This document shows positions 9,777 to 33,712 of a stretch of 64,000 bases of DNA, one piece after another (the first letter of the stretch is position 1; each line of letters begins with the position of its first letter). Both the position numbers and the translations under genes were made by a program. This DNA comes from a virus, in IMG/VR virus record IMGVR_UViG_3300030333_002409, positions 1-64,000 of that record. One strand, 5' to 3'. The notes beneath the pieces are model-generated. The model was not told the DNA's origin. It made no database searches and was given only the letters and a program-made list of their open reading frames with translations.

Positions 9777-9792
9777 CCCTTATATCGGGTCT
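9777..9792 (+). promoter_or_regulatory. Copy 1 of the CCCTTATATCGGGTCT element (candidate phage RNAP promoter)
   Basis: The 16-nt core shared with 22238, 26793 and 33158 begins two bases after the stop codon of the giant gene. In this copy the flanks form an inverted repeat, CTTAAG-T-CCC-loop-GGG-T-CTTAAG (9771-9796), so it may also fold as a hairpin. It points toward the early genes. It is repeated, intergenic and in the same orientation as all genes, hence promoter-like; no start site is known. Confidence 0.55.
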
Positions 9793-9929
9793 TAAGATAT
9801 AACTTAGGTTTAGCTTAGGATTAAAAGTATATTATATTATTATATAAGGTAAGTATACCTAGGTACTTAGGATAACCTAGGTGGTACTTCCTAATGAATT
9901 CGTCGGTGAACTGAGGGGGATAAGTACCT
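9793..9929 (+). other. AT-rich intergenic segment with CCTAGG palindromes
   Basis: The stretch around 9820-9850 is almost pure A/T, followed by two CCTAGG palindromes and repeats of GTACTT/AAGTA type (9855-9895). It lies between the late operon and the early genes, beside a candidate phage promoter. That combination is what T7-type replication origins look like, but early host promoters could equally lie here. I see no clear -35/-10 pair. Confidence 0.35.
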
Positions 9930-10247
9930 ATGGAATGTGAATACTGTAAAGAACGGGAAGTTAAGAAGCTTCGAGAAGACTTAATAAAATGCCAGAAGAG
10001 CTCAAAATCTAAAGACATGAAGCTGAAGGCACTGAACAAACGAGTATTCATATGTACTCTCGTCGGCGTAGCGATAGCTGCTATCTTCGGGAAGGAAGCT
10101 CTGGATGCTATCACGGAATGGCTGGGGTCTGTCAACAGCTTCCGCTCACAGGTCCTCAGTGACGCTACTGGGGTCTATCCCTCTCCGGGTACTCTTGGGG
10201 TATTTGCCGTCGCTGCATTGGTCTGTCGGCCTCGTAGGAGACGCTGA
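9930..10247 (+). CDS. Early membrane protein with CxxC head and PEP-CTERM-like tail
   Basis: 105 residues. The N-terminus has CEYC followed by a Lys/Glu-rich, probably coiled-coil stretch, then a hydrophobic segment (residues about 39-54, FICTLVGVAIAAIFG). The last 20 residues run PSPGTLGVFAVAALVC-RPRRRR, which has the three parts of a PEP-CTERM sorting signal: a short Pro-x-Pro-(G/S)-T motif, a hydrophobic helix and an Arg cluster. Such tails are known from exosortase-containing Gram-negative bacteria, not typically from phages. A purine-rich AGGGGG lies about 10 nt before the ATG. It is the first gene after the late operon. Its function is unknown; the tail could also be just a second membrane anchor. 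Confidence 0.7.
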   Translation: MECEYCKEREVKKLREDLIKCQKSSKSKDMKLKALNKRVFICTLVGVAIAAIFGKEALDAITEWLGSVNSFRSQVLSDATGVYPSPGTLGVFAVAALVCRPRRRR

Positions 10248-10274
10248 GGAAATCGGTAGGGGGTCGCGAATCTC

Positions 10275-10341
10275 TAGAGGGGGTGGGTAGAATAAAAGTT
10301 TTCGAATCCCCCACGTACCCCCTCTATCAAAAGGATTTTTT
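10275..10341 (+). terminator. Strong hairpin followed by T-run (terminator or processing site)
   Basis: TAGAGGGGGT (10275-10284) pairs perfectly with ACCCCCTCTA (10317-10326), giving 10 bp around an AT-rich loop; six T follow at 10336-10341. The same stretch carries the AAGGA ribosome site of the next gene, so folding could also affect its translation. The T-run is 9 nt away from the stem, which is far for an intrinsic terminator. Confidence 0.5.
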
Positions 10342-10344
10342 AAG

Positions 10345-10707
10345 ATGGACATCAAGTCACACCGTATTGCTGGACGTAGCGCTCACGATCTGTTCTACTA
10401 CACTTCCGTGGTTATTGAAACAGACACGGCTCGCTGTCCTTGGGTTTTCTCTAGGGAAGATGACTCCCACGCCATCTACCAGATGGATCCAGAGACCGTC
10501 GTAACAAAACGGAAGATTGATTGCACCTCACGGCTTAACGGTAAGTCCTACTGTTATTCCTATGTTCATCGTGTGGAACACAGTCCCATCACGGGTGAAC
10601 AGATGTACATCGTCCATGAAACATTCGTGTTTCATGATGGTGATACGATACAGGAACACAAAGGCTACGTTAGCTTCACTGAGTGCATGAGTCAGATCCC
10701 AGTCTGA
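10345..10707 (+). CDS. Hypothetical early protein
   Basis: 120 residues, no family recognised. It looks soluble and mixed alpha/beta, with a His/Asp-rich second half (VEHSPITGEQ, ETFVFHDGD) and four Cys without a clear metal-binding spacing. The ATG has AAGGA 9 nt upstream. It stands alone between two strong hairpins, like the other early genes, and codon use is GC-richer than in the late genes. Likely a host-takeover or early regulatory protein by position only. Confidence 0.75.
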   Translation: MDIKSHRIAGRSAHDLFYYTSVVIETDTARCPWVFSREDDSHAIYQMDPETVVTKRKIDCTSRLNGKSYCYSYVHRVEHSPITGEQMYIVHETFVFHDGDTIQEHKGYVSFTECMSQIPV

Positions 10708-10722
10708 CATGGCCGAAACCTC

Positions 10723-10744
10723 ATGCCGCCCTAACGGGCGGCAT
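10723..10744 (+). other. Intergenic hairpin (9 bp, TAAC loop)
   Basis: ATGCCGCCC and GGGCGGCAT pair perfectly around TAAC; outer AAACC/GGTTT extends the stem. There is no T-run, so an mRNA processing or stability element fits better than a terminator. Confidence 0.6.
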
Positions 10745-10809
10745 CGTGGTTTGTCGTGGATGAACTCACGGCACTGATGAGGCAGTTCCCTTAACTAAGG
10801 AGGTTCACT

Positions 10810-10989
10810 ATGAACCTAGAACAAAGAGTAGAAGCTCTCGAACAAAAGCTTGACGCGTTCTTCGCCAACGAGTACCCACGAGTCCGTAACATTGTGGACA
10901 AACGTGAGGAGGAACGCAAGGAAGAACCCTTGGTCATTCTCGGTCAAGGTGAGTACAGGATGAAGATCTACCCCTCTGACATTAAATGA
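10810..10989 (+). CDS. Small coiled-coil early protein
   Basis: 59 residues starting MNLEQRVEALEQKLDAFF, a clear leucine heptad pattern, then a Lys/Glu-rich linker and a short beta-like tail ending SDIK. The start has AAGGAGG with good spacing (10798-10804). No family recognised; oligomerisation through the N-terminal coiled coil is likely. It stands in the hairpin-separated early region. Confidence 0.75.
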   Translation: MNLEQRVEALEQKLDAFFANEYPRVRNIVDKREEERKEEPLVILGQGEYRMKIYPSDIK

Positions 10990-11041
10990 TGGTAGTCCCA
11001 TCAAGCTATGAGCACCAGCTTAAAGGGCTTAGGAGTTTGAT

Positions 11042-11266
11042 ATGGAGAAAACCCGTATCCACTTCTGCGTCTCGTGCGGCCCTGTCGATGACGAGCTCTA
11101 CCAAGAGTACGTCATGGCAGGCGAGCTCATCGAGTACCAGCATGGAGATAGTGACACCGGTCACCGTCTTCAGGCTGAGCTCGATGGGCGGTACGAGGTC
11201 GTAAAGATTCAGTGCCGTCAGTGTGCCTACCTAGAGGCGCACGGGTCTGATCATTACGACTCGTAG
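11042..11266 (+). CDS. Small putative zinc-ribbon protein
   Basis: 74 residues. Two Cys pairs, CVSC near the N-terminus and CRQC near residue 58, are spaced as in a treble-clef or ribbon zinc site, with an acidic middle (DELYQEYVMAGELIEY). The start is preceded by TAGGAG at 6 nt. The gene lies between the coiled-coil gene and a folded RNA segment. Function unknown; the metal site is inferred from the Cys spacing only. Confidence 0.7.
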   Translation: MEKTRIHFCVSCGPVDDELYQEYVMAGELIEYQHGDSDTGHRLQAELDGRYEVVKIQCRQCAYLEAHGSDHYDS

Positions 11267-11280
11267 CCTAACGAGACGCT

Positions 11281-11366
11281 ACAACGTCCCTCTGACGAGC
11301 CTTCGCGGTCGAGAGGGGCCTCATACCTATGCATTCCACGGAGTGCATACGTATGAGGCTTGTTGT
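11281..11366 (+). ncRNA. Predicted three-way-junction RNA element
   Basis: ACAAC (11281-11285) can pair with GTTGT (11362-11366), enclosing two abutting hairpins: CCCTCT...AGAGGG (11288-11317) and a long one with GCCTCATAC/GTATGAGGC (9 bp), a C-C mismatch and TATGCA/TGCATA (6 bp), 11318-11359. Fold deduced by eye. It may be a stable small RNA or a processing signal between early messages. Confidence 0.5.
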
Positions 11367-11485
11367 CTCTATACCCTACGACTACAGCCACGGAGCCAAG
11401 GAAAGGCTACCGGCTAGTAGTGTGTGCAAGAGCGGAGAAGGATCTCGCTCCGAGACCATACACACGGTTAGGAGCCTCTACTCTG

Positions 11486-11530
11486 GACAGGCGGACTTGA
11501 GGATGGGCGGTCCGCTTTGTCTTTCTTTTC
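11486..11530 (+). terminator. Hairpin plus pyrimidine-rich tail
   Basis: GACA-G-GCGGAC pairs with GTCCGC-TT-TGTC (11486-11521), followed by TTTCTTTTCC. This resembles a weak intrinsic terminator ahead of the gene at 11557. Upstream, GTGTG...CACAC and GCGGAG...CTCCG pairings (about 11420-11466) suggest the whole leader is folded. Confidence 0.45.
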
Positions 11531-11556
11531 CTGTTCCCATCGAATGGAGTTTCCTC

Positions 11557-11751
11557 ATGCCTAAGTACAATATCCAGATTCAAGTCGCCGGTCACATCAT
11601 CCTCGATGTGGTCGAGGCTCAGGATCCGCCTCATGCTGTCCGTATCCTCAACGAGATGGGCATCCGGGACGGTGAGTACGAGCTGCCATCCTCTGTGGTG
11701 GCTGAGGCTGAGGCTATGGTGCGTGAGTCTAACCGGCTCACTCATGGCTAA
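11557..11751 (+). CDS. Small hypothetical early protein
   Basis: 64 residues, beginning MPKYNIQIQVAGHIILDVV and ending in an acidic helix (SSVVAEAEAMVRESNR). The frame is open upstream to an ATG at 11329, but that codon sits inside the long hairpin at 11318-11359; the ATG at 11557 has GGAG 8 nt upstream and is the sensible start. The fold looks like a beta hairpin followed by helices. No family recognised. Confidence 0.7.
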   Translation: MPKYNIQIQVAGHIILDVVEAQDPPHAVRILNEMGIRDGEYELPSSVVAEAEAMVRESNRLTHG

Positions 11752-11764
11752 TGCCTGAGGGTGT

Positions 11765-11859
11765 GTACACCTACGGTGGGTAGGTGTACCATCCCCCATG
11801 CATTGGTTGAAGGTCATATGTTTGACCGCCGGTACATGAGGTCCGTCCCACCGTGGGAC
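11765..11859 (+). other. Intergenic hairpins before gene 11885
   Basis: GTACACCTA/TAGGTGTAC (9 bp, 11765-11789), GGTCA/TGACC (about 11812-11827) and GTCCCA-CCG-TGGGAC (11845-11859, 3-nt loop) follow one another. The fold is inferred; no T-run follows, so RNA processing or protection is more likely than termination. Confidence 0.5.
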
Positions 11860-11884
11860 ACATTCTCTTGAAAGGAGAATTATT

Positions 11885-12373
11885 ATGAAGAAGCAGATTA
11901 TCTCTCAGCGTGGTTTCATCCTCCACAATCGTCGCTCGACGATGGTGACGGTGAACACCAGCGGCAGGTCCAACGGGATCTACACCGTCATCCGGTCCAC
12001 GACCGGTACGGTGGAGAAACTGGAGGCTGCGGAGATGGTATCGCTCGTCAACGAACTGACCGCTGAGGGGTTCTCCCTCCGGTTCTGTTTCGGTGTGCGA
12101 GTCGAGGCCCGTGTGCGTCTGACGTTGAGCCATGCAGATGGCTGCGTCACCGCATCGATCAAGGGCGGCATTACGCTGTTCGAAGGTCACACTGGCTTCG
12201 AGATCGACCACTCCACCAGTGGGTCCTGTGCTCAGGAGGTCAAGGATGCTACCTACAGCTGGTTTAACGACCGGTTCGGTGGCAAGCCGCGTCTCCTGAG
12301 TGAGGATGGCGAGGCTCTTGACTTCGGGACCGAGGCTAAGGCTTCGGCTCCGCGTCAGCGTCTCCCATTCTGA
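11885..12373 (+). CDS. Hypothetical early protein
   Basis: 162 residues, start after AAAGGAG (AAAGGAGAATTATT-ATG). Beta-rich first two thirds (VTVNTSGRSNGIYTVI, RFCFGVRVEARVRLTL), then a tail rich in Gly/Glu/Ala ending RQRLPF. Codons are strongly C/G-ending. It sits immediately upstream of the array of hairpins at 12374-12745. I do not recognise a family. Confidence 0.75.
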   Translation: MKKQIISQRGFILHNRRSTMVTVNTSGRSNGIYTVIRSTTGTVEKLEAAEMVSLVNELTAEGFSLRFCFGVRVEARVRLTLSHADGCVTASIKGGITLFEGHTGFEIDHSTSGSCAQEVKDATYSWFNDRFGGKPRLLSEDGEALDFGTEAKASAPRQRLPF

Positions 12374-12745
12374 TCCCCTTCTTCGCTCGTCGCAGCGAGC
12401 CTAAACAGGCCTTAAGCTGCGAGCGGCCTGCCCTTCGGGGCAGGTGTGGCTTACCCGCTTCCTTTGGGAGCGGTGTGTCCGCTCTGTGAGGGCGGACTGG
12501 ACGTTCCCGCCTCCGTCCTATGGCGGAGGACCGCACGATGGCGGCGGTCTGTAGGAGCCACGAGGATCCCGTCTAAGGCCATCCCTCCCTAAGGAGGGGT
12601 ACGAGACCCCTTAGGGGCTTGGGAGCTCTCTATGGAGCTCTCCGGGCCTCTCAAGGCACGCTAGTGTGCGTGTGCGTGGGGGTCTGCTTTTTTCATCGTC
12701 CCTATGGGGACACAGCAGCCACCATAGGTGGCGTAAGGAGTTCAC
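12374..12745 (+). other. Chain of about twelve consecutive hairpins, no gene
   Basis: This 370-nt gene-free stretch is almost entirely small perfect or near-perfect stems: 12385-12400, 12427-12444 (CCTGCCC-TTCG-GGGCAGG), 12455-12473 (8 bp, TTT loop), 12477-12497 (8 bp), 12510-12529, 12529-12549, 12583-12598, 12607-12617, 12623-12640 (GAGCTC twice), 12656-12669, then six T at 12688-12693, 12698-12711 and 12719-12731 (CCACC-ATA-GGTGG). The T-run after the tenth stem may make part of it a terminator. The density is far above chance and suggests a structured RNA. Confidence 0.7.
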
Positions 12746-13267
12746 ATGAACGATAGACAATACCGAGGATCTCTCTGCGGAGACCACCTCCACCCTGATG
12801 AGGTGGAGTCGATGACGCAGACTTGGACCGGTAAGTTCCGGTATAGCGAGGATATCTCCATAAAGTGGGAGATTCTCCACTGGACTTCTCCGGATAACCG
12901 TAGGCCAGTGCCTACTCCAAGGTTTCCGGATCCGAGCGATGACCTCATTGGAGGTCGTGATGGCTGGAACATCTATCTTTATCTTCCCGCAGATTTCATC
13001 TGTGATTATGATAATGATGACTGGTCGAAGGTGTCGGACTACGACTTCGGTGAGCTGGTTCCCTACTCCTTTGGAGAGGTTACTTGGGCGACCCGTGTCA
13101 CTGAGTTCGGAACCAAGTACCTCAAGTTGGGCAATGATTACAATCATTCGTTCAACGATGCCTACTATTCGTTCGAGGAAATCTTCAAGGATCTGTCCAA
13201 GATTCTTGCTGAGTTCCGCCCTCCTTCGGAGCCCTTTGAACTTCCAAAGGGTTTCAATGAGGATTGA
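12746..13267 (+). CDS. Hypothetical early protein
   Basis: 173 residues, ATG preceded by TAAGGAG at good spacing. Rich in aromatic and acidic residues (DGWNIYLYLPADFICDYDNDDW; NDYNHSFNDAYYSFEE), predicted acidic overall, with a long C-terminal helix. No family recognised. It lies between the hairpin chain and the RNAP1 gene, so it is an early gene by position. Confidence 0.75.
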   Translation: MNDRQYRGSLCGDHLHPDEVESMTQTWTGKFRYSEDISIKWEILHWTSPDNRRPVPTPRFPDPSDDLIGGRDGWNIYLYLPADFICDYDNDDWSKVSDYDFGELVPYSFGEVTWATRVTEFGTKYLKLGNDYNHSFNDAYYSFEEIFKDLSKILAEFRPPSEPFELPKGFNED

Positions 13268-13275
13268 ATCGGGCT

Positions 13276-13360
13276 CCCTCCCTGAAAGGGGAGGGTGTCT
13301 ATTTGACCACTAACTCTTGGGTGGCTTGGTCAACCACCGAACCGTATGGTGCTAAGCACC
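13276..13360 (+). other. Three hairpins in the RNAP1 leader
   Basis: CCCTCCC-loop-GGGAGGG (13276-13295), TTGACC..CCAC/GTGG..GGTCAA (13303-13333) and GGTGC-TAA-GCACC (13348-13360) precede the RNAP1 ribosome site. The last has a 3-nt loop and contains the upstream ATG at 13346, which argues against that codon as the start. Confidence 0.6.
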
Positions 13361-13372
13361 AAGGAGGAACAA

Positions 13373-15475
13373 ATGAAATCATTTGATCTTCAACTCAAGC
13401 GTGAGGAGGCTCTTGTTGAGCCGACTCGTACTCGCTCCTTCCGTAACGCTCAGCGTGCCGGTGGAGACGGCGGCTATGCCGTCGCAGTCGTGGATGAAGT
13501 CGGTCGCTCGCTGGCTGCTGCTGTAAAGGCAGAGGTCTGTGAGGATTGGGCTGAGACCCAGCCTTGGTTCCCTATGTGGAAGGTGCTGTCACCTGACATT
13601 GTGGGTATCGAGATGATCGCTGCCATCCTCGATGTTGAAATCTTGGGTGAGTCTGCCCTCGAACAGGTCGTTCTCGACAGGTTCGTGGAAAGGCTCCGCA
13701 TTACCCTTGCTTTCCTCAGGGCAAAGCAGGAGAATGCAGCTCTCTTCGAGGAGCACACTCAGCGCCTGCGTAAGCGTGGTGCTAAGTGGGCAAGCCGTGA
13801 CTCTCAGGTCCGGTTCCTTGAGGTGACCGACACGGACTTGTCCGTTGTCGAACAAGATTTGCTCCGCCGGGTAGGGATGGTTGTGTTGGGGATCGCCGTT
13901 GATTCTGGACTCATCCAGAAGGATAAGGAGAACTCCAAGTTCTACTTGTCTCTGACCCGCTCATGGCGGCGGCGCATTCACCGGAACATGGAAGGGCGTG
14001 CCTTAGCACGACCCATTCGTCGACCGATGGTGCATCGTCCCAAGGACTGGAACGAGGCAGGTGTGGGTGGAGGATACCTGTCCAAATGGATGGCGTACAA
14101 CCTCGTTGATGGCGATAGCCTCGCCTCACCTATGGTGGTGGAGATGGCTAATCGGATGCAGTCCGTAGGGTACTGCGTCAATGAGCAGGTCCTGAAGCTC
14201 GCCTTGCGTGGGCTGAAGGGTTACCGCTCATCCAAAGATGCGGTTGATGGCAAGGTCCTTCGGGCAGAAGCCTCTCTCAAGGAGGCGGAAGCCTTGCTCA
14301 ACACCACCTTCTACTTCTGTGTCAAGTGTGACTACCGTGGTCGTGTGTACTACGTCAGTGACATCCTCAACCCTCAGGGTTGGGACCTTGACCGAGGGCT
14401 TCTCCGCTATGCGGAGGGGTGCGAACGCACGCCTGAGGCGTTGCGTTGGCTGAAGATTCACACTGCCAACAAGTTTGGCTTTGACAAGGAATCCTTCGAG
14501 GATCGTGTCAAGTGGTGTGATGAGCGATTCAACGAAATGCAGGCGGATCCCGTTGCCTTCTGGAAGGGCAACGACCCCGGCGACAAGGACCGTTGGTCAT
14601 CACTGGCTGCGGTACTCGACCTCGTTGGGGATGGTCCCATCACTACTCCGATTCAGGTCGACGCGACCTGCTCGGGACTTCAGCACTTGTCAGCAATGGC
14701 AGGTGATGAAGCAGTCGCCGTTGCGACTAATGTGATGCCGTCTGAAGACGGGATGCGTTGCGATCCTTACGTTGCCACCGCTGAAGCCTGCGGTCGGAAG
14801 CGATCTGAGGTCAAGCAAGCCGTGATGTGCATCCCCTATGGCATTAGCCTCTCGGGGATGATCGATCAGTTGATCGAAGAGGGCATTGAGCCCGACCGCC
14901 TCAAGGCTACAGTCTTGGCTGAAGACATCTGGGCCAGCTGTGAGGAGCTGATGAGTGGAGTACTCTCCATTATGAAGTTCCTCAAGGCTGGAGGACGAGC
15001 GTTGGCGGAAGCCGGTGTTCGTCCTCAGTGGACAACCCCTTCGGGGTTTGTCGCTGTGATGCCAACCGCTATCCTGAAGCGGCGCATCAGCATCATGGAT
15101 GCCAAAGGCAACATGGTGAAGACCCAGTTTGGTATTGAAGCAGCCGATGAGGTTGACCCCAACCAAGTTGTCCGTGGCATGGCTCCGAACTTCGTTCATA
15201 GCTATGATGCGGCACTGGTTGCCCTTGTGGTATCCCGTTGGGATGGACCAGTTACCTGCATCCATGACTGCTTCGCTACCACTGCGGACCAGATGGACGC
15301 ACTGCGAAATCTGATCCACGAGTGCTTCGTGGAACTGTATGGAAGCGATGCGATCCAGAAGGTACGCAATGAGTTTGTCCACTCAGCTCCGCTGGGGGTC
15401 AGCGTACCGCTGCCGCCAGTCCGGCGAGAGATGGACCTCAACCGCTCGCTCGAAAGCGAGTACATGTACTCCTGA
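13373..15475 (+). CDS. Single-subunit T7-like RNA polymerase 1 (RNAP1)
   Basis: 700 residues; T7 RNAP has 883. The start at 13373 follows AAGGAGG with 5-nt spacing; an in-frame ATG at 13346 lies in a hairpin. All catalytic motifs are visible: DYRGRVYYV (T7 DWRGR), motif A VDATCSGLQH with Asp430, motif B with Lys481 and Tyr489 (K-x7-YG), and motif C HDCFAT with Asp632. The C-terminus LESEYMYS matches the T7 LESDFAFA foot. The shorter length comes from a reduced N-terminal domain and 40 or so residues missing between motifs A and B. Codons are GC-rich, unlike RNAP2. It is probably transcribed early by the host polymerase and then transcribes phage promoters; which ones is unknown. Confidence 0.95.
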   Translation: MKSFDLQLKREEALVEPTRTRSFRNAQRAGGDGGYAVAVVDEVGRSLAAAVKAEVCEDWAETQPWFPMWKVLSPDIVGIEMIAAILDVEILGESALEQVVLDRFVERLRITLAFLRAKQENAALFEEHTQRLRKRGAKWASRDSQVRFLEVTDTDLSVVEQDLLRRVGMVVLGIAVDSGLIQKDKENSKFYLSLTRSWRRRIHRNMEGRALARPIRRPMVHRPKDWNEAGVGGGYLSKWMAYNLVDGDSLASPMVVEMANRMQSVGYCVNEQVLKLALRGLKGYRSSKDAVDGKVLRAEASLKEAEALLNTTFYFCVKCDYRGRVYYVSDILNPQGWDLDRGLLRYAEGCERTPEALRWLKIHTANKFGFDKESFEDRVKWCDERFNEMQADPVAFWKGNDPGDKDRWSSLAAVLDLVGDGPITTPIQVDATCSGLQHLSAMAGDEAVAVATNVMPSEDGMRCDPYVATAEACGRKRSEVKQAVMCIPYGISLSGMIDQLIEEGIEPDRLKATVLAEDIWASCEELMSGVLSIMKFLKAGGRALAEAGVRPQWTTPSGFVAVMPTAILKRRISIMDAKGNMVKTQFGIEAADEVDPNQVVRGMAPNFVHSYDAALVALVVSRWDGPVTCIHDCFATTADQMDALRNLIHECFVELYGSDAIQKVRNEFVHSAPLGVSVPLPPVRREMDLNRSLESEYMYS

Positions 15476-15545
15476 TTGAACGGGGTGCGTTACGGGGCTC
15501 CTCCCTAGGGGGGAGCCTCGATACCTGTGCCGTTCAACCAACAAA

Positions 15546-15569
15546 GGTGGGCAAAGCCCACCAATAGAA
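15546..15569 (+). repeat. Hairpin-AATAGAA unit 1 (possible hairpin promoter)
   Basis: GGTGGGC-AAA-GCCCACC forms a perfect 7-bp stem with a 3-nt loop and is followed at once by AATAGAA. An AGAAAGAC/GTCTTTCT hairpin comes directly after, so a transcript starting here would carry a 5' stem-loop. Confidence 0.65.
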
Positions 15570-15689
15570 AGACGTATGTGTCTTTCTAAGGGAAGGGGCA
15601 TAGGGTACGGGGATACCTTCATCTCATGATGAGGAGCCCCCGCCCTACTTCGGCGGACGGTGGGATGCAAAACATCTCGGCGGACCGGA

Positions 15690-15713
15690 GGTGACCAAAG
15701 GTCACCAATAGAA
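15690..15713 (+). repeat. Hairpin-AATAGAA unit 2
   Basis: GGTGACC-AAA-GGTCACC, then AATAGAAGAG. Relative to units 1 and 3 two stem positions changed on both arms, so pairing is preserved. The AATAGAAGAG end resembles the SP6 promoter start region (ATAGAAGAG). Confidence 0.65.
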
Positions 15714-15720
15714 GAGGGGC

Positions 15721-15775
15721 AGTGTTCGACTACTTACCTGTGGATTGCAGGGTCAACACTTAGATAATCCACAGG
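15721..15775 (+). ncRNA. Predicted H-type pseudoknot (or two-state RNA switch)
   Basis: AGTGTT-C-GAC (15721-15730) pairs with GTCAACACT (15752-15760), 9 bp with one bulge; CCTGTGGATT (15737-15746) pairs perfectly with AATCCACAGG (15766-15775), 10 bp. The two helices interleave (a-b-a'-b'), with loops of 6, 5 and 5 nt. Either a compact pseudoknot forms or the helices are mutually exclusive. It begins 7 nt after unit 2's AATAGAA, so it would be the 5' end of a transcript starting there. Confidence 0.55.
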
Positions 15776-15857
15776 CTACCCCAGACGGCAGAGCACGGGT
15801 TTGTTGGAGGCTGGGTGCGGCGGACGTAGACCTGCCAAGAGTAACAAAGGTCTAGCG

Positions 15858-15881
15858 GGTGGGCAGAGCCCACCAATAGAA
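15858..15881 (+). repeat. Hairpin-AATAGAA unit 3
   Basis: GGTGGGC-AGA-GCCCACC followed by AATAGAAGA. The stem is identical to unit 1; the loop differs by one base. A GGTTG/CAACC palindrome and TGGAG/CTCCA hairpin follow downstream (about 15900-15940). Confidence 0.65.
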
Positions 15882-16025
15882 GAACTCGTAGCAGTGACGG
15901 TTGTACAACCTAGGGACTGTAATGGAGTTTGCTCCACCTTTAGCGGGGTGGACTGAACGACGCCTCGGCAGAGGTACAGGTCCTGCACATGGACCCGTGT
16001 TAACTTATTCCCGATGTGCCGGGTT

Positions 16026-16065
16026 AGCTGATATCTGTAGGTAGGAAATCAGCTGGACAATAGGA
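16026..16065 (+). repeat. Degenerate hairpin-AATAGGA unit 4
   Basis: AGCTGAT (16026-16032) pairs with ATCAGCT (16048-16054) with a 15-nt loop, then GGAC-AATAGGAGA. It keeps the AATAG and the preceding stem but not the tight loop, so membership in the family is uncertain. Confidence 0.35.
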
Positions 16066-16380: not shown

Positions 16381-16382
16381 CT

Positions 16383-22237: not shown

Positions 22238-22269
22238 CCCTTATATCGGGTCTATGGATGCAATCCATA
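22238..22269 (+). promoter_or_regulatory. Copy 2 of CCCTTATATCGGGTCT plus 5' hairpin, before RNAP2
   Basis: The core CCCTTATATCGGGTCT occupies 22238-22253. It is followed by TATGGAT-GCA-ATCCATA (22253-22269), a perfect 7-bp stem with a 3-nt loop, so transcripts from here would begin with a stable hairpin. Located 31 nt before the RNAP2 start codon. Confidence 0.7.
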
Positions 22270-22299: not shown

Positions 22300-24747
22300 A
22301 TGTACAAATGGAATAGTATTCCCCAGCAAGAACGTGATGATAGAAAAAATCTTCAGGTTGTTTGGGAAGAAGATCTCCTTTCTATGGGCATTAATAAATA
22401 TTGGAGTGATTTTAATAGAGCTCCAGATGAGAGTGAACCTGAACAACAACTGTTAGATGCTAGTGTTATACACTTACAGCCTCTCTTCCAAGTTTGGATT
22501 GACGAGGCTGCTAAGAGACCTAGGACTCCGAGCTGGTTGATTCCTCTACTCAGTATTGGGTCATTCAAAGCAGCAGATATTGTTATTAGAAATGTTCTTA
22601 GATTAACACTAGAAGGATCTGCTTCTGGTGGGGTGGCTTCTTCCTTTAGGAAGGAACCAAGAGCACAAACTATTGCTTCTTGTATTGCAGATGATGTTAT
22701 TAATATTGTCTCGTATCAAGCAAGCAAAGAACAATTTAGAGATGATTGGAAAAGACAGTCTAAGTTTACTAAGAACTGGTCACCCAAGAGATGCTTAGCC
22801 TTTACTAAAAAGTTAGGAAACATTCCTCAATTACCTAGGAAAGGAAAGCAAGACTTCGGACATGCTATGCTTAGGATAGCACTGCTATCTGATATCTTAG
22901 TGGCGGACAAGGTTAGAATAAAACCAAACTCACGGTGCAAAACAAAGGAGCATATATATGTCCGATTAAATGATAAGATTTTGGAGGAGCTGCACACTAA
23001 GCACCACCTTCTAGAACTCTCTTCTCTCATATATCGACCAATGATTGCTCCTCCTTTGGACCACCTTCCAGAAGAACCCGGAGGTAATTACTTACGGTGG
23101 ATTAGAAAACCTACAGTTAAACGATACGTAAACAATAGTAGGGTCGAAGAGGATAAGATCACACAGCACTGCTCAGAGCTAGTACTAAAGGGTCTGAACT
23201 CTCTTCAACAAACTGAGTGGTCAATCAATGAACCGGTCCTCCGAGTAATGGAGGACTTCTTTGAAGGCAACACAGCTTTAGCTAATCTCCCGACCTACGA
23301 CTTTGAAGGATTCTCCATGAGGAAGTATCCTCAAGAGGGTAGTAAGGTTGAGCAGGGTCGGTGGATGGCTGAGCGTGAAGAGAAGTGGGGTAAATGGTAT
23401 AGGGATGAGCAAAAGCGGGGGCGTATGTTAGTTAGAATGCATCTAGCTAATCAACTTATCCCGCATGGATGGTTCTACCACCCGTACAGCCTAGACTTTA
23501 GAGGAAGAGCATATACAGCATGCGAACTTCTATCCCCACAAGGTGCGGACTTTGATCGAGGGCTTCTGTTGTTTGCGAATGCTAAGAAGCAAACCCCAAG
23601 GGGATTGTATTGGCTTAAGGTTCACACGGCTAATCTCTTTGATCAAGATAAACTTCCTTATGATGAAAGGGTGGCATGGGTTGATGAGAATATGCCCATG
23701 CTTATGCGTATTGCTGAAAACCCTTATGATAATAAGGAGTGGGTTTCCGATAAAGAAAAGAAGAACCCTTCCTTCCAGAGATTGGCAGCGTGCTTTGAGC
23801 TAGCCAGAAAGGATGGGCTTACTCAACTTCCTGTCCAACTCGATGGGGCTTGTAACGGATCCCAACACTGGTCAGTTATTATGGGGGATGAGACTGTAGC
23901 GGAACTTACTAATGTTATTGGAAGCCACTCTCCTCAAGATCTCTATGGATTTGTAGCTCAGCAAACCACTGACATCATCGCTAAGAACGAAGATGATCTT
24001 GATTGGTTTGTTACATTTATGGATCACTGGCAAGAAGGCATTGAACGTGCTGTAGTCAAGAGACCTACAATGTGTGATGCTTATGGCCTAACCTTCTACG
24101 GTATTCAGAAGTATCTTAAATTGGAGGGACACCTTGATTGGGTTCCTCGTGATGATAGAGGTGGTGCTGTAGTCGAGATGGCAAGAGCTGTCCAGCAGGG
24201 ACTAGGCATGACTCTAGATATGCCTAACAAAGGAAAGGATTGGTTAAAGGAAGTAGCTTCAGTGGCCAACCTATCAGAGAAACATTTAATCTGGACTACT
24301 CCCTCAGGATTTATTGTCGAACATGTGTATCAGCCTATTAGACAACGCCGGTCTTACACCGAGTTGTTTAATCAAAAGAAATTTGAACTGGTCTTTGCAA
24401 ACTATTACGATGGTGTTAACGCAAACGGACAGGAGCTTGGGATTGCTCCGAACTTTATTCACAGTTTAGATGCTGCCCATATGTTCTTAACTCTTATTAG
24501 ATTACTACAAAAGAACGTTGATTCATTTTCCATGATTCATGACTCCTATGGTGTACATGCACCTGATGTGGACATCATGAATGAATGTTTACGTCAAGCG
24601 TTCATTGAAATACATAAGGAGAATGTACTTGAAACGTTCAAGCAGGATGTCGAGGAGTACCTCGGCATCGTCGCTCCGCCAATCCCCAATCCAGCCGGAG
24701 GACTTGACCCCGCCTGTGTCCTCGACTCCGAATACTTCTTTAGTTAA
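22300..24747 (+). CDS. Single-subunit T7-like RNA polymerase 2 (RNAP2)
   Basis: 815 residues, closer in length to T7 RNAP (883). The ATG at 22300 has AAGGAG at ideal spacing; the in-frame ATG at 22258 lies in the promoter hairpin. Motifs: SLDFRGRAYTACELLSPQG (T7 DWRGR block), motif A LDGACNGSQHWS with Asp515, motif B with Lys587 and Tyr595 (VVKRPTMCDAYG), motif C IHDSYG with Asp748, and a C-terminus LDSEYFFS like the T7 foot. Codon use is AT-richer than RNAP1. Directly preceded by the repeated 16-nt element, so it may be switched on by RNAP1 or autoregulated. Likely the polymerase of the middle or late genes. Confidence 0.95.
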   Translation: MYKWNSIPQQERDDRKNLQVVWEEDLLSMGINKYWSDFNRAPDESEPEQQLLDASVIHLQPLFQVWIDEAAKRPRTPSWLIPLLSIGSFKAADIVIRNVLRLTLEGSASGGVASSFRKEPRAQTIASCIADDVINIVSYQASKEQFRDDWKRQSKFTKNWSPKRCLAFTKKLGNIPQLPRKGKQDFGHAMLRIALLSDILVADKVRIKPNSRCKTKEHIYVRLNDKILEELHTKHHLLELSSLIYRPMIAPPLDHLPEEPGGNYLRWIRKPTVKRYVNNSRVEEDKITQHCSELVLKGLNSLQQTEWSINEPVLRVMEDFFEGNTALANLPTYDFEGFSMRKYPQEGSKVEQGRWMAEREEKWGKWYRDEQKRGRMLVRMHLANQLIPHGWFYHPYSLDFRGRAYTACELLSPQGADFDRGLLLFANAKKQTPRGLYWLKVHTANLFDQDKLPYDERVAWVDENMPMLMRIAENPYDNKEWVSDKEKKNPSFQRLAACFELARKDGLTQLPVQLDGACNGSQHWSVIMGDETVAELTNVIGSHSPQDLYGFVAQQTTDIIAKNEDDLDWFVTFMDHWQEGIERAVVKRPTMCDAYGLTFYGIQKYLKLEGHLDWVPRDDRGGAVVEMARAVQQGLGMTLDMPNKGKDWLKEVASVANLSEKHLIWTTPSGFIVEHVYQPIRQRRSYTELFNQKKFELVFANYYDGVNANGQELGIAPNFIHSLDAAHMFLTLIRLLQKNVDSFSMIHDSYGVHAPDVDIMNECLRQAFIEIHKENVLETFKQDVEEYLGIVAPPIPNPAGGLDPACVLDSEYFFS

Positions 24748-26577: not shown

Positions 26578-26798
26578 CAGAAGAAAAACAAAAGTTTCAA
26601 GTAAATGAAAAGTTTAAGGACTATACTGATCAGGGAATCTCTGCTCCACAAGTCTTGACTTTTCTAGATAACATTCAGATCATGCTTAGGGCTATTGCTG
26701 GGGATATTGAAATGGCTATTAATAATATTCAAGCCACTAAACCCGAGCCTGCACCTGAAGACAAGGAAGAAAGTAAGGAAGAAGTAGACGCGACGTAA
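26574..26798 (+). CDS. Small acidic protein
   Basis: 74 residues overlapping the phosphoesterase stop (ATGA). A helical middle (LTFLDNIQIMLRAIAGDIEMAINNIQ) is followed by a Lys/Glu/Pro tail. No family recognised; the gene ends at the next promoter element. Confidence 0.65.
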   Translation: MTEEKQKFQVNEKFKDYTDQGISAPQVLTFLDNIQIMLRAIAGDIEMAINNIQATKPEPAPEDKEESKEEVDAT

Positions 26799-26824
26799 TA
26801 TCGGGTCTATGGATACAATCCATA
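26796..26824 (+). promoter_or_regulatory. Copy 3 of TATCGGGTCT element plus 5' hairpin, before SSB operon
   Basis: TAATATCGGGTCT (26796-26808), then TATGGAT-ACA-ATCCATA (26808-26824), the same 7-bp stem as at 22253 with one loop base changed. The upstream CCC of the other copies is absent here. It overlaps the stop of the preceding gene and lies 30 nt before the SSB start. Confidence 0.7.
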
Positions 26825-26854: not shown

Positions 26855-27382
26855 ATGGATAATAAATATGGTAAGTCTCTATTCACTGGAGACGTAAGCG
26901 TCACTTGGTCACATTTGCACAAGCCTGACGTTAAGTTCGGTAACCCACACCATAGCTTGACCGTCCAGTTGGACGATGAGCTTCTGGCTACCCTCACCAA
27001 CACAATGAAGGAGATGGGCGGAAAGAAGATCAATGGTATGGGCGAAAACAAAGAAGGAGTCAAGACCGTTAAGTTTAAGAACGTACTCAAGGCAAAGGAA
27101 GGCATGCAGACATTCCCCTGTGTCGATGCTGAGGCCAAGCCGACAAGAGCCCTGCCGTTTGGCGGAGACATTTGTCGTGTGAAGGTTACTCCATGTGTCC
27201 TCGGTCGAGACGAGTCTGTCTCCTTCTATCTTGAAGGTGTTCAGATCATCGAGAAGACCGACACATCAGGAATGACCTCAGGCTTTGAGAAGACTGAAGG
27301 GTTCCGTGATGAGGATTTAGGTACGTCCGCACCCGTGGCTGCCAATCTCCCTGACGAAGACCTTGAAGACCTTCCATTCTGA
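26855..27382 (+). CDS. Single-stranded DNA-binding protein (gp2.5-like)
   Basis: 175 residues. The OB-fold-like body (FTGDVSVTWSHLHKPDVKF...) and an acidic C-terminal tail ending DEDLEDLPF are the gp2.5 pattern, in which the terminal acidic-Phe tail contacts polymerase and helicase. Position, directly before RusA and the primase-helicase, supports the call. Strong ribosome site (AAAGGAG). Role: binds exposed ssDNA during phage replication and recombination. Confidence 0.8.
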   Translation: MDNKYGKSLFTGDVSVTWSHLHKPDVKFGNPHHSLTVQLDDELLATLTNTMKEMGGKKINGMGENKEGVKTVKFKNVLKAKEGMQTFPCVDAEAKPTRALPFGGDICRVKVTPCVLGRDESVSFYLEGVQIIEKTDTSGMTSGFEKTEGFRDEDLGTSAPVAANLPDEDLEDLPF

Positions 27383-27762: not shown

Positions 27763-27781
27763 CTAACAAGGAAACTGTACT

Positions 27782-29530: not shown

Positions 29531-31214
29531 TTTGGAGGCTAATGGGTTAAATGAACTGGTACTTGACCGTAAAGGAAACCCTCACACAGAAGCTGACCGC
29601 ATCCATGTCTTGGTTACTAAAGACATTGATACAGGTTCCGTTGATGTGTATAGAGAAGATACTATTATGGATGGTGTCCGCAGTTTATGCGGTGCTGATC
29701 TTATCATCGGCCATAATATTATGCTGTATGACATTCCTATTTTGGAGCGGAGTACTCATCGTATTCCAACTAAAGCATTCGATACGCTCATTATATCGAG
29801 GATGATGTTCCCCGATAAGAGTGATCACCCTCTTGGAGGTAACTCTCTCAGAGCATGGGGTGAGTATCTCGGAGAGTATAAGTCCGACTACACTGGTGGT
29901 TGGGAAGAATGGAACCAAGAAATGGAAGACTATTGTATTCAAGATGTCCACGTATCTGAGAAGATATTCAGATACCAGCAGGACTTTCTTCGAAAGAACG
30001 AAAAGCCTGTACGTCTTGAGCACATGGTCACTAAGATTATTGCTGATCAAATTGAGAATGGATTTGGATTTAACTTAACAGCAGCCCAACAACTTGAGAA
30101 ACAACTCATGTATGAGAAAGCAAGTGTTGAGGATAACATGAGGGAAATCTTCCCCGATAAAATCCATGTTCGTATTTCCGAAAAGACGGGAAAGAGATTA
30201 AAGGATAAAGTAGAAGTCTTTAATCCCGGATCCCGACAGCAAATTGGGGATAGATTAAACAGCAAGTATGGTTGGTCTCCACCTCTAACAGACAAAGGCA
30301 ACTACAACATAGATGCCTCTGTCTTAAAGTCGCTTGATTTTCCCGAAGCAAAAGAACTCTGTACTTATTTCGATACAACGAAGTTAATAAGTCAGGTTTC
30401 TGATTGGGTTGCAAGGGCTTCTCATAGTAGGGACGGACGCATACACGGTAGCTTGAATCCTCAGGGTACTGTGACCGGACGCATGACCGCATCTCAACCG
30501 AACCTCCAACAGGTATCGGGAGATCCTAGAGCACGAGCTTTATTTATTCCTCGTGATGGCTGGGTACAGGTGGGAATCGATGCTTCGGGATTGGAAGCAA
30601 GGTTGTTAGCTAGCCGAATGGCTGAGTTTGATGACGGTGCTTATGCTGATGTTATCCTTAATGGAGATATCCATACAACAAACCAAGAGGCTGCGGGTCT
30701 TTCGACTCGTGACCAAGCAAAAACCTTCTTCTACGGCTTCATATACGGAGCCGGTAATAAGAAGATTGGAGAGATTGTGGGTAAGGGTGAAAGCGTAGGA
30801 GCTAAGCTTAAGAAGAAGTTCTTGGCTGAGCTGCCTGCTCTAAAGAAAGTAATGGACAGAGCAAGAGTATCTGCGGATACTCGTAAATCTGTTACCCTAC
30901 TCGACGGTCGATCCGTACCTGTTCGATCCGCACATAAGGCTTTGAATACTCAGATTCAAGGCGATGGTGCAATCGTGATGAAACTAGCTCAGTGTATCCT
31001 TAACGAAAAGATTAAGGGAAATGGACTAGCGGATAAAGCTAAGTTCATGGCAACTGTTCACGATGAGTGGCAGTTAGAATGCGATCCAAGTGTAGCCGAA
31101 CAAGTCGGTAAACTTGGAGTTACTTCTATCACTGAAGCTGGAGAACGTCTCGGCTGTCGAATGAGATTAGATGGAGAATTTAAAATTGGAGAAAACTGGA
31201 GTGAGTGCCACTAA
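29511..31214 (+). CDS. Family A DNA polymerase (gp5-like)
   Basis: 567 residues. Start at 29511 has GGAGG at 5 nt; the upstream in-frame ATG is a shadow of the helicase gene. N-terminal 3'-5' exonuclease motifs FDLEANGL, GHNIMLYDIP and YCIQDVHVSEK; polymerase motif A GIDASGLEARLLA (Asp357), motif B RDQAKTFFYGFIYG, motif C HDEW (Asp518). About 135 residues shorter than T7 gp5, so the thioredoxin-binding insertion in the thumb is probably absent and processivity must come another way. Confidence 0.95.
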   Translation: MSRLIFDLEANGLNELVLDRKGNPHTEADRIHVLVTKDIDTGSVDVYREDTIMDGVRSLCGADLIIGHNIMLYDIPILERSTHRIPTKAFDTLIISRMMFPDKSDHPLGGNSLRAWGEYLGEYKSDYTGGWEEWNQEMEDYCIQDVHVSEKIFRYQQDFLRKNEKPVRLEHMVTKIIADQIENGFGFNLTAAQQLEKQLMYEKASVEDNMREIFPDKIHVRISEKTGKRLKDKVEVFNPGSRQQIGDRLNSKYGWSPPLTDKGNYNIDASVLKSLDFPEAKELCTYFDTTKLISQVSDWVARASHSRDGRIHGSLNPQGTVTGRMTASQPNLQQVSGDPRARALFIPRDGWVQVGIDASGLEARLLASRMAEFDDGAYADVILNGDIHTTNQEAAGLSTRDQAKTFFYGFIYGAGNKKIGEIVGKGESVGAKLKKKFLAELPALKKVMDRARVSADTRKSVTLLDGRSVPVRSAHKALNTQIQGDGAIVMKLAQCILNEKIKGNGLADKAKFMATVHDEWQLECDPSVAEQVGKLGVTSITEAGERLGCRMRLDGEFKIGENWSECH

Positions 31215-31542
31215 AACTACATATAAGTTAAGAGTTTATATCGCCGGTCCTATGCGTGGGATCGAAGACTTTAACCGAAAGGCATTTAACAAAGCTGAAA
31301 AGAAACTTTCAAAGCTTTCTTACTTTATTCCATATAATCCAGCTAAGCAAGATAAAGAACTTAACCTCACAGATGGAGAGCTTCTGTCAAAGGAAGGTCT
31401 TAAGTCTGTAATGAGGAGAGACCTCAATGCTTTATGTGGGTGTGACGCTGTGTATATGCTTACGGGCTGGGAAAAATCCGAAGGTGCTATCATTGAGCAC
31501 CGTCTAGCAACTATGCTAGGATTAACAATTTTGTACGAATGA
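31201..31542 (+). CDS. DUF4406 (nucleoside-deoxyribosyltransferase-like) protein
   Basis: 113 residues from GTG 31201 (GGAG 9 nt upstream); ATG 31171 is in frame but has no ribosome site. RVYIAGPMRGIEDFNRKAF and GCDAVYMLTGWEKSEGAIIEHRLA are the DUF4406 signature, a family with the fold of nucleoside 2-deoxyribosyltransferases. Probable role in nucleotide handling, as it sits between the polymerase and dNMP kinase genes; catalysis is unproven. Confidence 0.8.
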   Translation: MSATKTTYKLRVYIAGPMRGIEDFNRKAFNKAEKKLSKLSYFIPYNPAKQDKELNLTDGELLSKEGLKSVMRRDLNALCGCDAVYMLTGWEKSEGAIIEHRLATMLGLTILYE

Positions 31543-31549
31543 GGTTACT

Positions 31550-32392
31550 ATGCAAGTAATTATATTATCAGGACAAGCAAAGTCAGGAAAATCCTACCTT
31601 GCTTCCCTAATTGCAGAGGAGGTGTTTAGACGAGGATACATTCCCGTTATAGACAACTTCGCTGCCCCTATTAAGACCGAAGCTGAAAGCGTAGGTCTTA
31701 ATAAAGAAGAGAACCACGACTCTTTTCGTAGATTCTGCCAAGACTTTGGTCGGATGAAACGAACGGAGGACCCTGAATACTTTGTCCGTAAAGCTGCGGA
31801 AAGATTGTCAGAGGTTTCCAAGGAAGAGGCTCTCGATATTTCAAACAATAGAAAGCATTGGGAAAGAGTTGTAATCTTTGATGACTGTCGATACCCTAAT
31901 GAATGTAAATTTGGTAAGGCTGTGGATGCAGTTCTAGTATTTGTCACTAGAGGAGATAAGCTCCCAGACCAGACGGCGGATTGGAGGGAGCATGAGTCCG
32001 AGCACATGAGTAGAATCATAGACTCAACCGGATTCGAGTCCCACTTCGATGAGGTCTTCGATGTCTTTGTCATTAATGATGGGAAAAAGAAGGACCTTGA
32101 GAAGTTGGTCAAAGAAAGAGTTCAGACTTGGCTAAGCGTACACCATCCTAACTTTGGTGATTGCTTAGCAGAAGGGTGTAATTGTCCTCTCTGTGTGGCT
32201 AAAAGAGATGGGACTATTCCAGATCCTACGGAAGTTTTAGAATACATTCTAAGGAAACTGACGGGAAGAGACTTTACTCCCGAACAACTTGATGCCCTTG
32301 AAGATCAAATGGATGAAGGCGGAACCCCTAGAATAGATATTGATTTTATGATAAGCTTTGAAGATGAGGATGAAGAAGATGAAGAAGCCTGA
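31550..32392 (+). CDS. Deoxynucleoside monophosphate kinase-like P-loop protein
   Basis: 280 residues. P-loop GQAKSGKSYLA (residues 8-18), then FRRFCQDFGRMKRTEDPEYF and VIFDDCRYPNECKF, typical of phage dNMP kinases, which supply dNTP precursors. The last 85 residues (after FGDCLAEGCNCPLC, a possible metal site) form an acidic extension with DFTPEQLDALEDQMD. Acts with DUF4406 and ribonucleotide reductase genes in nucleotide supply. Confidence 0.8.
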   Translation: MQVIILSGQAKSGKSYLASLIAEEVFRRGYIPVIDNFAAPIKTEAESVGLNKEENHDSFRRFCQDFGRMKRTEDPEYFVRKAAERLSEVSKEEALDISNNRKHWERVVIFDDCRYPNECKFGKAVDAVLVFVTRGDKLPDQTADWREHESEHMSRIIDSTGFESHFDEVFDVFVINDGKKKDLEKLVKERVQTWLSVHHPNFGDCLAEGCNCPLCVAKRDGTIPDPTEVLEYILRKLTGRDFTPEQLDALEDQMDEGGTPRIDIDFMISFEDEDEEDEEA

Positions 32393-33164
32393 TTTAGCAG
32401 TACTGGATGGAGACATTCTAGTTCACCGAGCTGCTTGGTGGGCCGATGGGGAGGGCATTGATATGCTTGAACCTAGGCTACACCAAGATATTGACAACTG
32501 GAGTGCGGGGCATAGTAAGTACATGGTTGCTTTCTCGTGTAAACGTGAAGACAATTTTCGCCGTGACTATTTCCCCCTGTATAAAGTCAATAGGGCCGGT
32601 AGACCAGAGCCTGAGTGCTTAAGCTACGCCATCGAAATAGTGGAGGATAGGTGTACCACAGTTCGTAGGCCGAGGATCGAAGCCGACGATATCCTAGGAA
32701 TGATGGCTTCTGCTGGCCTAGCAACCGCAGTTACGATTGATAAGGATCTTCAATGCTGTCCCGGATGGCACTGGAATCCCGAGAAAGAAGAAGCCCCTCA
32801 CTATGTCAGTGAGGAAAAGGCGGACCTCAATCTCTATAAACAGTGGATATCAGGAGACTTAACAGATAATATCTTTGGGGTATGGAACTGGGGACCAAGG
32901 AAAGCGGAGAAACTTTTAGAGAACACGCCCCGGGAGGAGTGGGATCAGGTAGTTGGAGAACTATTTCGAGAGAATCCACGCCCTGAGCACAAAAGGATAG
33001 ATGAAATTGACCGGATGGATGGAGATGAGTATGCTCTTTCCCAAGCAATTTGCGTCAGAATCCTGCGAGATGGTGAATTTAACAAGAAAAAGGAGGAAGT
33101 TAAGCTATGGGTTCCAGACCTCAATCCACAAGTAAGCGAAGACATCCACGCCCAAAGCCCTTAA
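32379..33164 (+). CDS. 5'-3' exonuclease (gp6-like, FEN family)
   Basis: 261 residues from ATG 32379 (GAGG upstream; three earlier in-frame ATGs are possible). LDGDILVHRAAW, RPRIEADDILGMMAS, TIDKDLQCCPG and GDLTDNIFG...GPRKAEKLL carry the acidic metal ligands and helix-hairpin-helix of the family. Removes RNA primers and degrades host DNA in T7. Its stop codon lies inside promoter element copy 4. Confidence 0.9.
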   Translation: MKKPDLAVLDGDILVHRAAWWADGEGIDMLEPRLHQDIDNWSAGHSKYMVAFSCKREDNFRRDYFPLYKVNRAGRPEPECLSYAIEIVEDRCTTVRRPRIEADDILGMMASAGLATAVTIDKDLQCCPGWHWNPEKEEAPHYVSEEKADLNLYKQWISGDLTDNIFGVWNWGPRKAEKLLENTPREEWDQVVGELFRENPRPEHKRIDEIDRMDGDEYALSQAICVRILRDGEFNKKKEEVKLWVPDLNPQVSEDIHAQSP

Positions 33165-33712
33165 ATCGGGTCTATAGAGAATACCCCGAGAATATACAAG
33201 AGGATAAGACAACCGAGGAGATGGTTGATGTTGTTGTAAGATTCTACCTAACCAAGGACCTGAACTGTCTACGTTGGGTATACTGCTGGGCTGGAAGCCC
33301 TGTTCAACACTGTCAAGTCTATATTGATGGGCTTATTCACAATATAGATGCTCATATTCCTAGTCATTGGATGTGTGATGAGCTGTACCTAGGGGATAAA
33401 GATGGGGGTGGCTATGAAAAGGCTAAGGAATTGACGTTTAAAGTCCCTAGGAGTGTTGTTGATTGGGATAAAATCCGAGCAGTAAGCGAAGGGTTCCGTA
33501 TCAACGTCTTTAAGACCTTGTTCTGGGGAATTGTCAGGCACAGTAGGGGCGGAAAACATATCCCTAAGCCTTCCCCAGATTGTGTATCTATCAGTAGACA
33601 AATCTTAGGGACCCTCGGGATATGGGGCAGCGGTGAGCTGCCTTGGGAATTCTATGAGAGTCTCGTTAATAATTACAAACCTGAAATTAAATCATACAGG
33701 AGTTTTAAATAA
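33107..33712 (+). CDS. Hypothetical protein, possible permuted papain-like fold
   Basis: 201 residues from ATG 33107 (AAGGAGG 10 nt upstream), overlapping the exonuclease. A second start at 33221 lies downstream of promoter element copy 4 and would drop 38 basic residues. RWVYCWAGSPVQHCQVYID with a downstream PDCVSISRQILG gives a His-then-Cys order as in permuted NlpC/P60 (YiiX/LRAT-like) proteins; this is a weak resemblance. It could act on cell wall or lipids, or be structural. Confidence 0.6.
   Translation: MGSRPQSTSKRRHPRPKPLNRVYREYPENIQEDKTTEEMVDVVVRFYLTKDLNCLRWVYCWAGSPVQHCQVYIDGLIHNIDAHIPSHWMCDELYLGDKDGGGYEKAKELTFKVPRSVVDWDKIRAVSEGFRINVFKTLFWGIVRHSRGGKHIPKPSPDCVSISRQILGTLGIWGSGELPWEFYESLVNNYKPEIKSYRSFK
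33158..33176 (+). promoter_or_regulatory. Copy 4 of the CCCTTAAATCGGGTCT element
   Basis: CCCTTAAATCGGGTCTATAG, one mismatch to copies 1 and 2, sits over the exonuclease stop codon (TAA 33162-33164) and inside the start region of the next gene. No 7-bp hairpin follows. It probably drives the genes from 33221 on, including ribonucleotide reductase and the head genes. Confidence 0.6.

Follow-up and report, generated by a model that had tools for sequence, protein, structure and literature searches.

The window analysed here is a stretch of 64,000 nucleotides (nt), positions 1 to 64,000 of the IMG/VR virus record IMGVR_UViG_3300030333_002409, and its subject is a short element that stands at four gene boundaries and is probably a promoter used by the phage's own single-subunit RNA polymerase (RNAP) of the T7 family. 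The full record comprises 66,697 bases with a 100-base end repeat and carries T7-like genes for RNA polymerase, single-stranded DNA-binding protein (SSB), primase-helicase, DNA polymerase, exonuclease, ribonucleotide reductase (RNR), head-tail adaptor, and major head and tail proteins.

The core of the element, ATCGGGTCT, is present in four exact copies in the full record, all on the plus strand, and in none on the minus strand. The copies (s1 to s4, all plus strand) lie as follows: s1 (9777..9799, CCCTTATATCGGGTCTTAAGATA) directly 3' of the stop of a giant frame (9774); s2 (22238..22260, CCCTTATATCGGGTCTATGGATG) 62 nt upstream of the likely start of the gene for RNAP2 (22300..24747, plus strand), a T7-family single-subunit RNA polymerase of 815 amino acids (aa; PF00940, E 1.9e-84); s3 (26793..26815, ACGTAATATCGGGTCTATGGATA) 62 nt upstream of a Gp2.5-like SSB gene (26855..27382, plus strand; phrog_112, E 5.4e-12), its TAA being the stop codon of the small frame ahead of it; and s4 (33158..33180, CCCTTAAATCGGGTCTATAGAGA) at the end of the exonuclease gene, whose stop (33162-33164) it includes, ahead of the late block and 63 nt upstream of the next gene (33221..33712, plus strand). 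The RNAP2 start at 22300 was chosen by alignment with a close relative, G001, and 33221 is the likely start of the gene downstream of s4 because the frames of relatives align from there.

A sequence-only reading had reported a 16-nt element, CCCTTATATCGGGTCT, in the plus orientation at these four boundaries, with no further intergenic copy. Copies, orientation and contexts were all found as reported, and the 62-63 nt spacings refine them: the 16-mer is exact at 9777-9792 and 22238-22253, has one mismatch at 33158-33173 and three at 26793-26808 (plus strand). The whole-genome motif search gave the four cores; a fifth, loose match to CCCTTATATCGGGTCT (58062, minus strand, three mismatches) lies within a coding frame (56219-61504) and fits chance. 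In shuffled sequences, 0.55 matches were expected each, and five were reached in 0 of 100. The reported length did not hold: the 16-mer is there, but conservation extends over about 23 nt (CCCTATAATCGGGTCTATRGA), and s2 and s3 are also accompanied by a covarying hairpin. When 24-mers were compared all against all across the genome, the element came out among the most prominent dispersed repeats; nothing else that is dispersed and non-coding stood out with more than three copies.

The anatomy of the element was read from 11 aligned sites (the window and its relatives G001-G003), with provisional position numbering. No variation is seen in columns -12 to -4 (ATCGGGTCT), in G+1 and A+2 after TAT[R] or, further upstream, in -18 C and -16 T; positions -15 to -13 are A or T with few exceptions and -3 to -1 are AT[R]-like. 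The G is kept in 13 of 13 sites when two further contigs are included. An AT-rich upstream part, a specificity core and a TATA-like part are all present. T7-type promoters have an AT-rich part at -17 to -13, a specificity core, a melting part at -4 to -1 and a start region at +1 to +4 (PMC11617373, in excerpt), and the layout of the element, judged by its bases, resembles that of T7-type promoters, although two start registers fit it.

Other features lie close to s1 and s2. Three tRNA genes (Arg-TCT, Leu-TAA, Met-CAT; 21232-21871) stand directly ahead of s2, and a near-identical 24-mer (23/24) occurs at 22113-22136 and 25287-25310 in two small frames that encode an FGKITQEE-type peptide. Shortly after s1 comes a 40-mer (9818-9857) whose AT content of 85% (82.5% in G001) is among the two highest in the genome. 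A promoter next to an AT-rich replication origin is found in T7, which s1 with its AT-rich neighbour resembles.

Conservation of the element and its hairpin

In the six genomes or contigs compared, the window included, all homologous boundaries that could be tested, 13 of 13, carry the core: 4/4 in the window, 3/3 in G001, 2/2 each in G002 and G003, and 1/1 each in L056 and L057. G001 (51,094 bp), whose RNAP1 (the second polymerase, described below) and RNAP2 are 87% and 80% identical to those of the window, carries the element after the giant gene, before RNAP2 and before SSB, the fourth boundary being beyond the contig end. In G002 (22,037 bp) and G003 (20,927 bp) it stands before SSB and at the exonuclease stop, and in L056 and L057 at the exonuclease stop. 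The surrounding sequence diverges while the element is kept. A position-weight matrix trained on the seven G001-G003 sites, without any window site, placed the four window sites at the top of both strands (scores 31.1, 29.4, 26.7 and 21.0; next match 8.4). Because relatives keep the element in the same places, it is very probably a start signal for a phage RNA polymerase. The proposal of a candidate phage promoter, for which the sequence-only reading had suggested looking for absence in related genomes, is supported in this way, and also because the phage encodes two T7-family polymerases and the few-copy, one-strand, boundary pattern is that of Pseudomonas phage VSW-3.

Within the viral contig collection, the pattern TCGGGTCTATNGATNNAATCNATA matched two related contigs only and CCCTATAATCGGGTCTNNNGA matched G001 and G003 only. 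Eighteen stretches with exact ATATCGGGTCTATGGA in that collection were taken as chance or unrelated, because none has further element sequence or a hairpin and several are mutual copies. Searches for relatives with RNAP2 alone found none, those with the RNAP2 alignment found G001 only, and those with RNAP1 found G001 only among viral contigs and none in genome_contigs.

At s2 and s3 the element adjoins a hairpin, identified by folding and covariation: TATGGAT-GCA-ATCCATA (22253..22269, plus strand) and TATGGAT-ACA-ATCCATA (26808..26824, plus strand), respectively. A likewise perfect 7-bp stem with a 3-nt loop, beginning 2 nt after GGG, was present at all four homologous G001-G003 sites seen, and the more distant L084 (DNA polymerase 61%) has the same core-hairpin arrangement with another stem. 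Across eight hairpin sites, which amount to only a few independent changes, 56 of 56 cells are paired and both sides have changed in six of seven pairs; sliding one arm as a control breaks 35-45 of the 56 cells. The loops on the plus strand are GCA, ACA, GGA, AGA, ACT and AAC. This covariation argues that the 7-bp hairpin at s2 and s3 is maintained as a structure.

The hairpin is less regular elsewhere. A weaker one is found at s1 (9791..9808, plus strand; 6-bp stem with one G-U, 6-nt loop, minimum free energy -3.3), at the place of which G001 has a different stem. Nine of the 11 close sites fold from -5 or -4, three of these (s1 of the window and of G001, s4 of G002) with longer or interrupted loops, and folding gave no such hairpin at s4 of the window and of G003, nor at most of the wider-clade exonuclease-end sites folded. 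With a stem that reaches upstream of the predicted start, the hairpin would work in DNA or in read-through RNA, probably by easier melting in the former or by stability or processing of the mRNA in the latter.

A separate family of three hairpins (15546-15569, 15690-15713 and 15858-15881; 7-bp stem and 3-nt loop, then AATAGAA) lies in non-coding DNA after RNAP1 and is the sole other dispersed non-coding repeat near the top of the 24-mer ranking. G001 likewise has three such hairpins, with stems exchanged by paired changes.

For the wider clade, a DNA polymerase alignment covered 80 loci from among 385 encoded relatives, a good number of them in records of 60-70 kb that share the gene order of the window. 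Several loci carry CCCTAAAGTTGGGTCATAAAGA, CCCGATAATTGGGTAAACAA, CCCAATAATTGGGTAATGGAGT or CCCTGATAGTTGGGGCTA at the exonuclease end, before SSB or before RNAP2; distant relatives have ATTGGG or GTTGGG where the window and its close relatives have ATCGGG. The loose core [AG]T[TC]GGG was found at 19/41 (SSB), 3/17 (RNAP2) and 17/55 (exonuclease end) boundaries against a background of 0.82 per kb, tallies that include the close loci and exceed chance only by a modest margin. The strict pattern WWA[AG]T[TC]GGG[GT], counted in 40 non-redundant of 76 loci with four close loci excluded, occurred 16 times in 17,460 boundary nt versus 18 times in 544,900 nt elsewhere, a 27.7-fold enrichment; on the minus strand it occurred twice in 562,360 nt. 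The pattern had been drawn up with sites already in view, which makes this enrichment partly circular. In a non-circular test with a matrix of the 13 close sites, three of the ten best wider-clade matches fell in predicted boundary windows (0.16 expected), and six of the top 50 (0.78 expected). Support from the wider clade is weaker than that from close relatives, and partly negative. In L140 (G006), AATAGTTGGGTTA occurs at about 4587 and 11491 of the reverse complement, upstream of the match regions for the second RNAP and RNAP2.

The polymerases and the reading of the element

The second T7-family polymerase, RNAP1 (13373..15475, plus strand; 700 aa, short N-terminus; PF00940, E 8e-48), is about 26% identical to RNAP2, and both keep the catalytic motif residues. 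A recent duplication was rejected, given their deep separation in the tree, which has many weak forks and long branches. RNAP1 lies in a GC-rich stretch (10001-16000; 52-57% versus about 44% elsewhere) for which blastn gave no match in the phage collection, and the RNAP1 sequence found weak plasmid matches only. A Pistol ribozyme (12385-12451; Rfam RF02679, 65.8 bits) lies in the same stretch.

If the element is a phage promoter, RNAP2 is the likely reader, because similar elements occur in relatives without a detectable second polymerase. With PF00940, a second polymerase was found in five of 15 relatives' records (G001, G004, G005, G006 and G018; in G006 only part of the domain); the other ten, which include records with similar elements (e.g. 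G007 and G008), showed a single polymerase. RNAP2 also keeps a basic stretch in the region corresponding to the T7 RNAP contacts with AT-rich upstream DNA, a stretch that RNAP1 does not have (T7 residues taken from an excerpt of PMC11617373). Its specificity loop (RRS) is kept in most of the clade and differs in L104 and L106, where no element was seen; this co-absence is an anecdote and no test.

RNAP2 would bind the core, melt TAT[A/G] and initiate at the invariant G or no more than a few bases away, in a T7-like register. Four plus-strand blocks would be transcribed: from s1 the GC-rich region with RNAP1, from s2 RNAP2's own gene, with which RNAP2 could amplify its own synthesis, from s3 the SSB, primase and DNA polymerase block, and from s4 the RNR and structural block.

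Several observations weigh against the element being a promoter, or against parts of the proposal. The core also has two off-site copies, one within the G003 RNR frame and one in L091, in a tRNA-like 3' end. The sites are compatible with two start registers, offset by 3 nt: a T7-like one with G in 13 of 13, and one reached by aligning GGG to the Syn5 and VSW-3 promoters, which puts the start 3 nt later (the 10th nt after GGG), with a purine in 12 of 13. Part of the hairpin precedes the predicted start, a position for which a plain 5'-leader hairpin would not account. Both typable close genomes (the window and G001) carry both polymerases, and the cognate enzyme is a proposed one. In the wider clade, bare AT[TC]GGG was not enriched at boundaries (1.5-fold, p 0.13), the -15 to +3 version of the 13-site matrix test was not significant, and L058-L067 and L069-L078 (DNA polymerase 62-64% identical, similar RNAP2 loop) had no element at the three boundaries, except for one GTCGGG in L070.

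Transcription by RNAP1, as an early product that would activate RNAP2 and the later blocks by way of the element, is unlikely. It is consistent with the presence of RNAP1 in both typable element-bearing genomes at 87% identity and with the position of s2 directly ahead of RNAP2, as such a cascade needs; moreover, the best match of RNAP1 among the compared enzymes, its own relative aside, is Syn5 RNAP (30%), whose promoter begins ATTGGG. The one-polymerase relatives with similar elements and the missing basic stretch argue against RNAP1, and the canonical position ahead of SSB, primase and DNA polymerase belongs to RNAP2.

The element might instead act in RNA: polycistronic read-through mRNA would be processed or stabilised there, and the hairpin would shield the new 5' ends of the RNAP2 and SSB messages. 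The compensatory changes, the fixed start 2 nt after GGG and the transcribed orientation ahead of genes speak for such a role, which is nevertheless doubtful: the unpaired core is the most conserved part, also at s4 where there is no hairpin, and the blocks would still need a promoter, for which the 24-mer comparison offered no other candidate with more than three copies.

About as doubtful is the proposal that s2 and s3 are dual promoters, with a core read by RNAP2 and a DNA hairpin read by a virion-injected polymerase contained in the giant product, as in an N4-like cascade. The giant frame (about 4956 aa; 4957 codons including the stop) runs from 61501-66597 joined to 1-9774, across the record ends. 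It contains FDKSFNGKHHFHAML (motif A, about nt 1040-1085) and RAFWKMPIMVRLYSAG (motif B, about nt 1402-1449), whose internal spacing is like that of T7 motif A (FDGSCSGIQHFSAML) and motif B (RSVTKRSVMTLAYG); motif C was not confidently identified. Six giant proteins align there; motif A retains its D, and motif B its R, K and Y, in every one of them. A three-row giant model matched five of 14 relatives' records, and one of the five was itself part of the model. In profile comparison, the giant alignment matched the RNAP family with a probability of 70% (E 4.1e-5), and the reversed alignment with 0.1% (E 0.78); the three-row alignment against RNAP1 alone gave nothing, nor did a DNA polymerase alignment control. 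No match was obtained for a giant piece (window 4000-9774) with phmmer against PDB sequences, and for the window part of the frame no hit passed the cut-off in PHROGs or Pfam. AlphaFold2 without alignment on a 1000-aa piece was uninformative (predicted local distance difference test score 36.5). The motifs suggest that the giant product is possibly a third, N4-like virion-type RNA polymerase. If the dual-promoter proposal were true, the three AATAGAA hairpins (15546, 15690 and 15858) would serve as promoters consisting of a hairpin alone, the hairpins at s2 and s3 would start RNAP2 and SSB expression before RNAP2 exists, and three single-subunit polymerases would form an N4-like cascade inside a T7-like genome.

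It is very improbable that the copies are left over from a repeat or recombination site and play no part in transcription: phages do have short dispersed repeats, and s1 adjoins its AT-rich 40-mer, but the strict orientation, the gene-boundary positions and the 13 of 13 homologous sites kept while flanks diverge are contrary to this. A host sigma-70-type promoter or host regulator site, to which AT-rich hexamers such as TATAAT in the relatives' version might point, is scarcely credible, as the GC core is invariant and the AT hexamer is not, and for s1-s3 a sigma-70 promoter was rejected after a consensus scan of 9700-29600 (29 sites versus 25.0 in shuffles, no excess) gave no -35/-10 hexamers overlapping them.

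With a promoter read by a phage polymerase as the preferred explanation, the element provides a concrete candidate promoter sequence for uncultured T7-like phages of about 65 kb and makes their transcription programme testable. Some phages of this group encode two, perhaps three, single-subunit RNA polymerases, and a new polymerase-promoter pair could serve in vitro RNA synthesis. To our knowledge, a fixed core with a covarying hairpin has not been described for T7-type promoters. In the papers searched, three strings of the element occurred in a single unrelated paper only, and literature searches, among them one on Autographiviridae phages with two RNA polymerases, found nothing on this phage group.

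Comparison with known promoters

T7 has many more promoter copies than the four of the window, and the SP6 promoter has CTATAGA at its start, as does s4. With T7 and SP6 promoters the element shares the AT-rich upstream part, the specificity core, the TATA-like melting part and, in the T7-like register, the G start; the core is TCGGGTC in the window instead of theirs (T7 sequence from an excerpt of PMC9624206). A search with the SP6-like ACACTATAGA gave six matches versus 4.58 expected, none at the element.

The promoters of N4 virion RNA polymerase are hairpins with a 5-7 bp stem and a 3-nt loop, in which stem bases are free if pairing is kept (PMC4496689, in excerpt). The hairpins at s2 and s3 have this form; that at s1 is different, and s4 has none. 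The window also differs from N4, whose polymerase reads conserved loop bases, in its unconserved loop bases and in the strong unpaired core upstream of the hairpin. An N4-type hairpin promoter as the sole explanation was rejected, because the loops vary, s4 is without a hairpin and the core lies outside it.

The sequence-only reading had found no match to the T7, SP6 or Syn5 promoters. For Syn5 this stands for the full sequence: the cyanophage Syn5 promoter, ATTGGGCACCCGTAA (PMC3950665 and PMC11617373, in excerpt), had 0 matches in the window at up to three mismatches. It does not stand for the core, which resembles those of Syn5 and VSW-3 (AT[T/C]GGG); the ATTGGG of Syn5 is carried by the window's distant relatives. 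In the part of the Syn5 genome examined, a single copy was seen, within its RNAP gene, unlike the four of the window. Syn5 and VSW-3 promoters have 9 nt between GGG and the start (PMC3950665 and PMC9624206, in excerpt), and RNAP2 has RRSYTELF in place of the VKTR specificity-loop stretch common to their polymerases, a stretch taken from our own alignment and not a published criterion. The element was not classed as Syn5/VSW-3 type, because the spacing is ambiguous and the shared loop residues are absent from RNAP2. Its mode of action is most likely that of a T7-type promoter.

The 21-bp promoter of VSW-3, TTAATTGGGCCACCTATA, occurs in four copies and was predicted and then proven by in vitro transcription and 5' rapid amplification of cDNA ends (PMC9624206, in excerpt). 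Its GGG-to-start distance of 9 nt is probably 6 in the window element, its copies have no 7-bp/3-nt hairpin at the corresponding place, and the polymerases are less than 30% identical, with different specificity loops. Its AATTGGG-type core resembles that of the window's distant relatives, the window itself having ATCGGG. Like the element, it has four copies at gene boundaries of an Autographiviridae phage and TATA before the start. VSW-3, whose promoter was found by the same logic of a few copies at boundaries, is the nearest proven precedent for the element.

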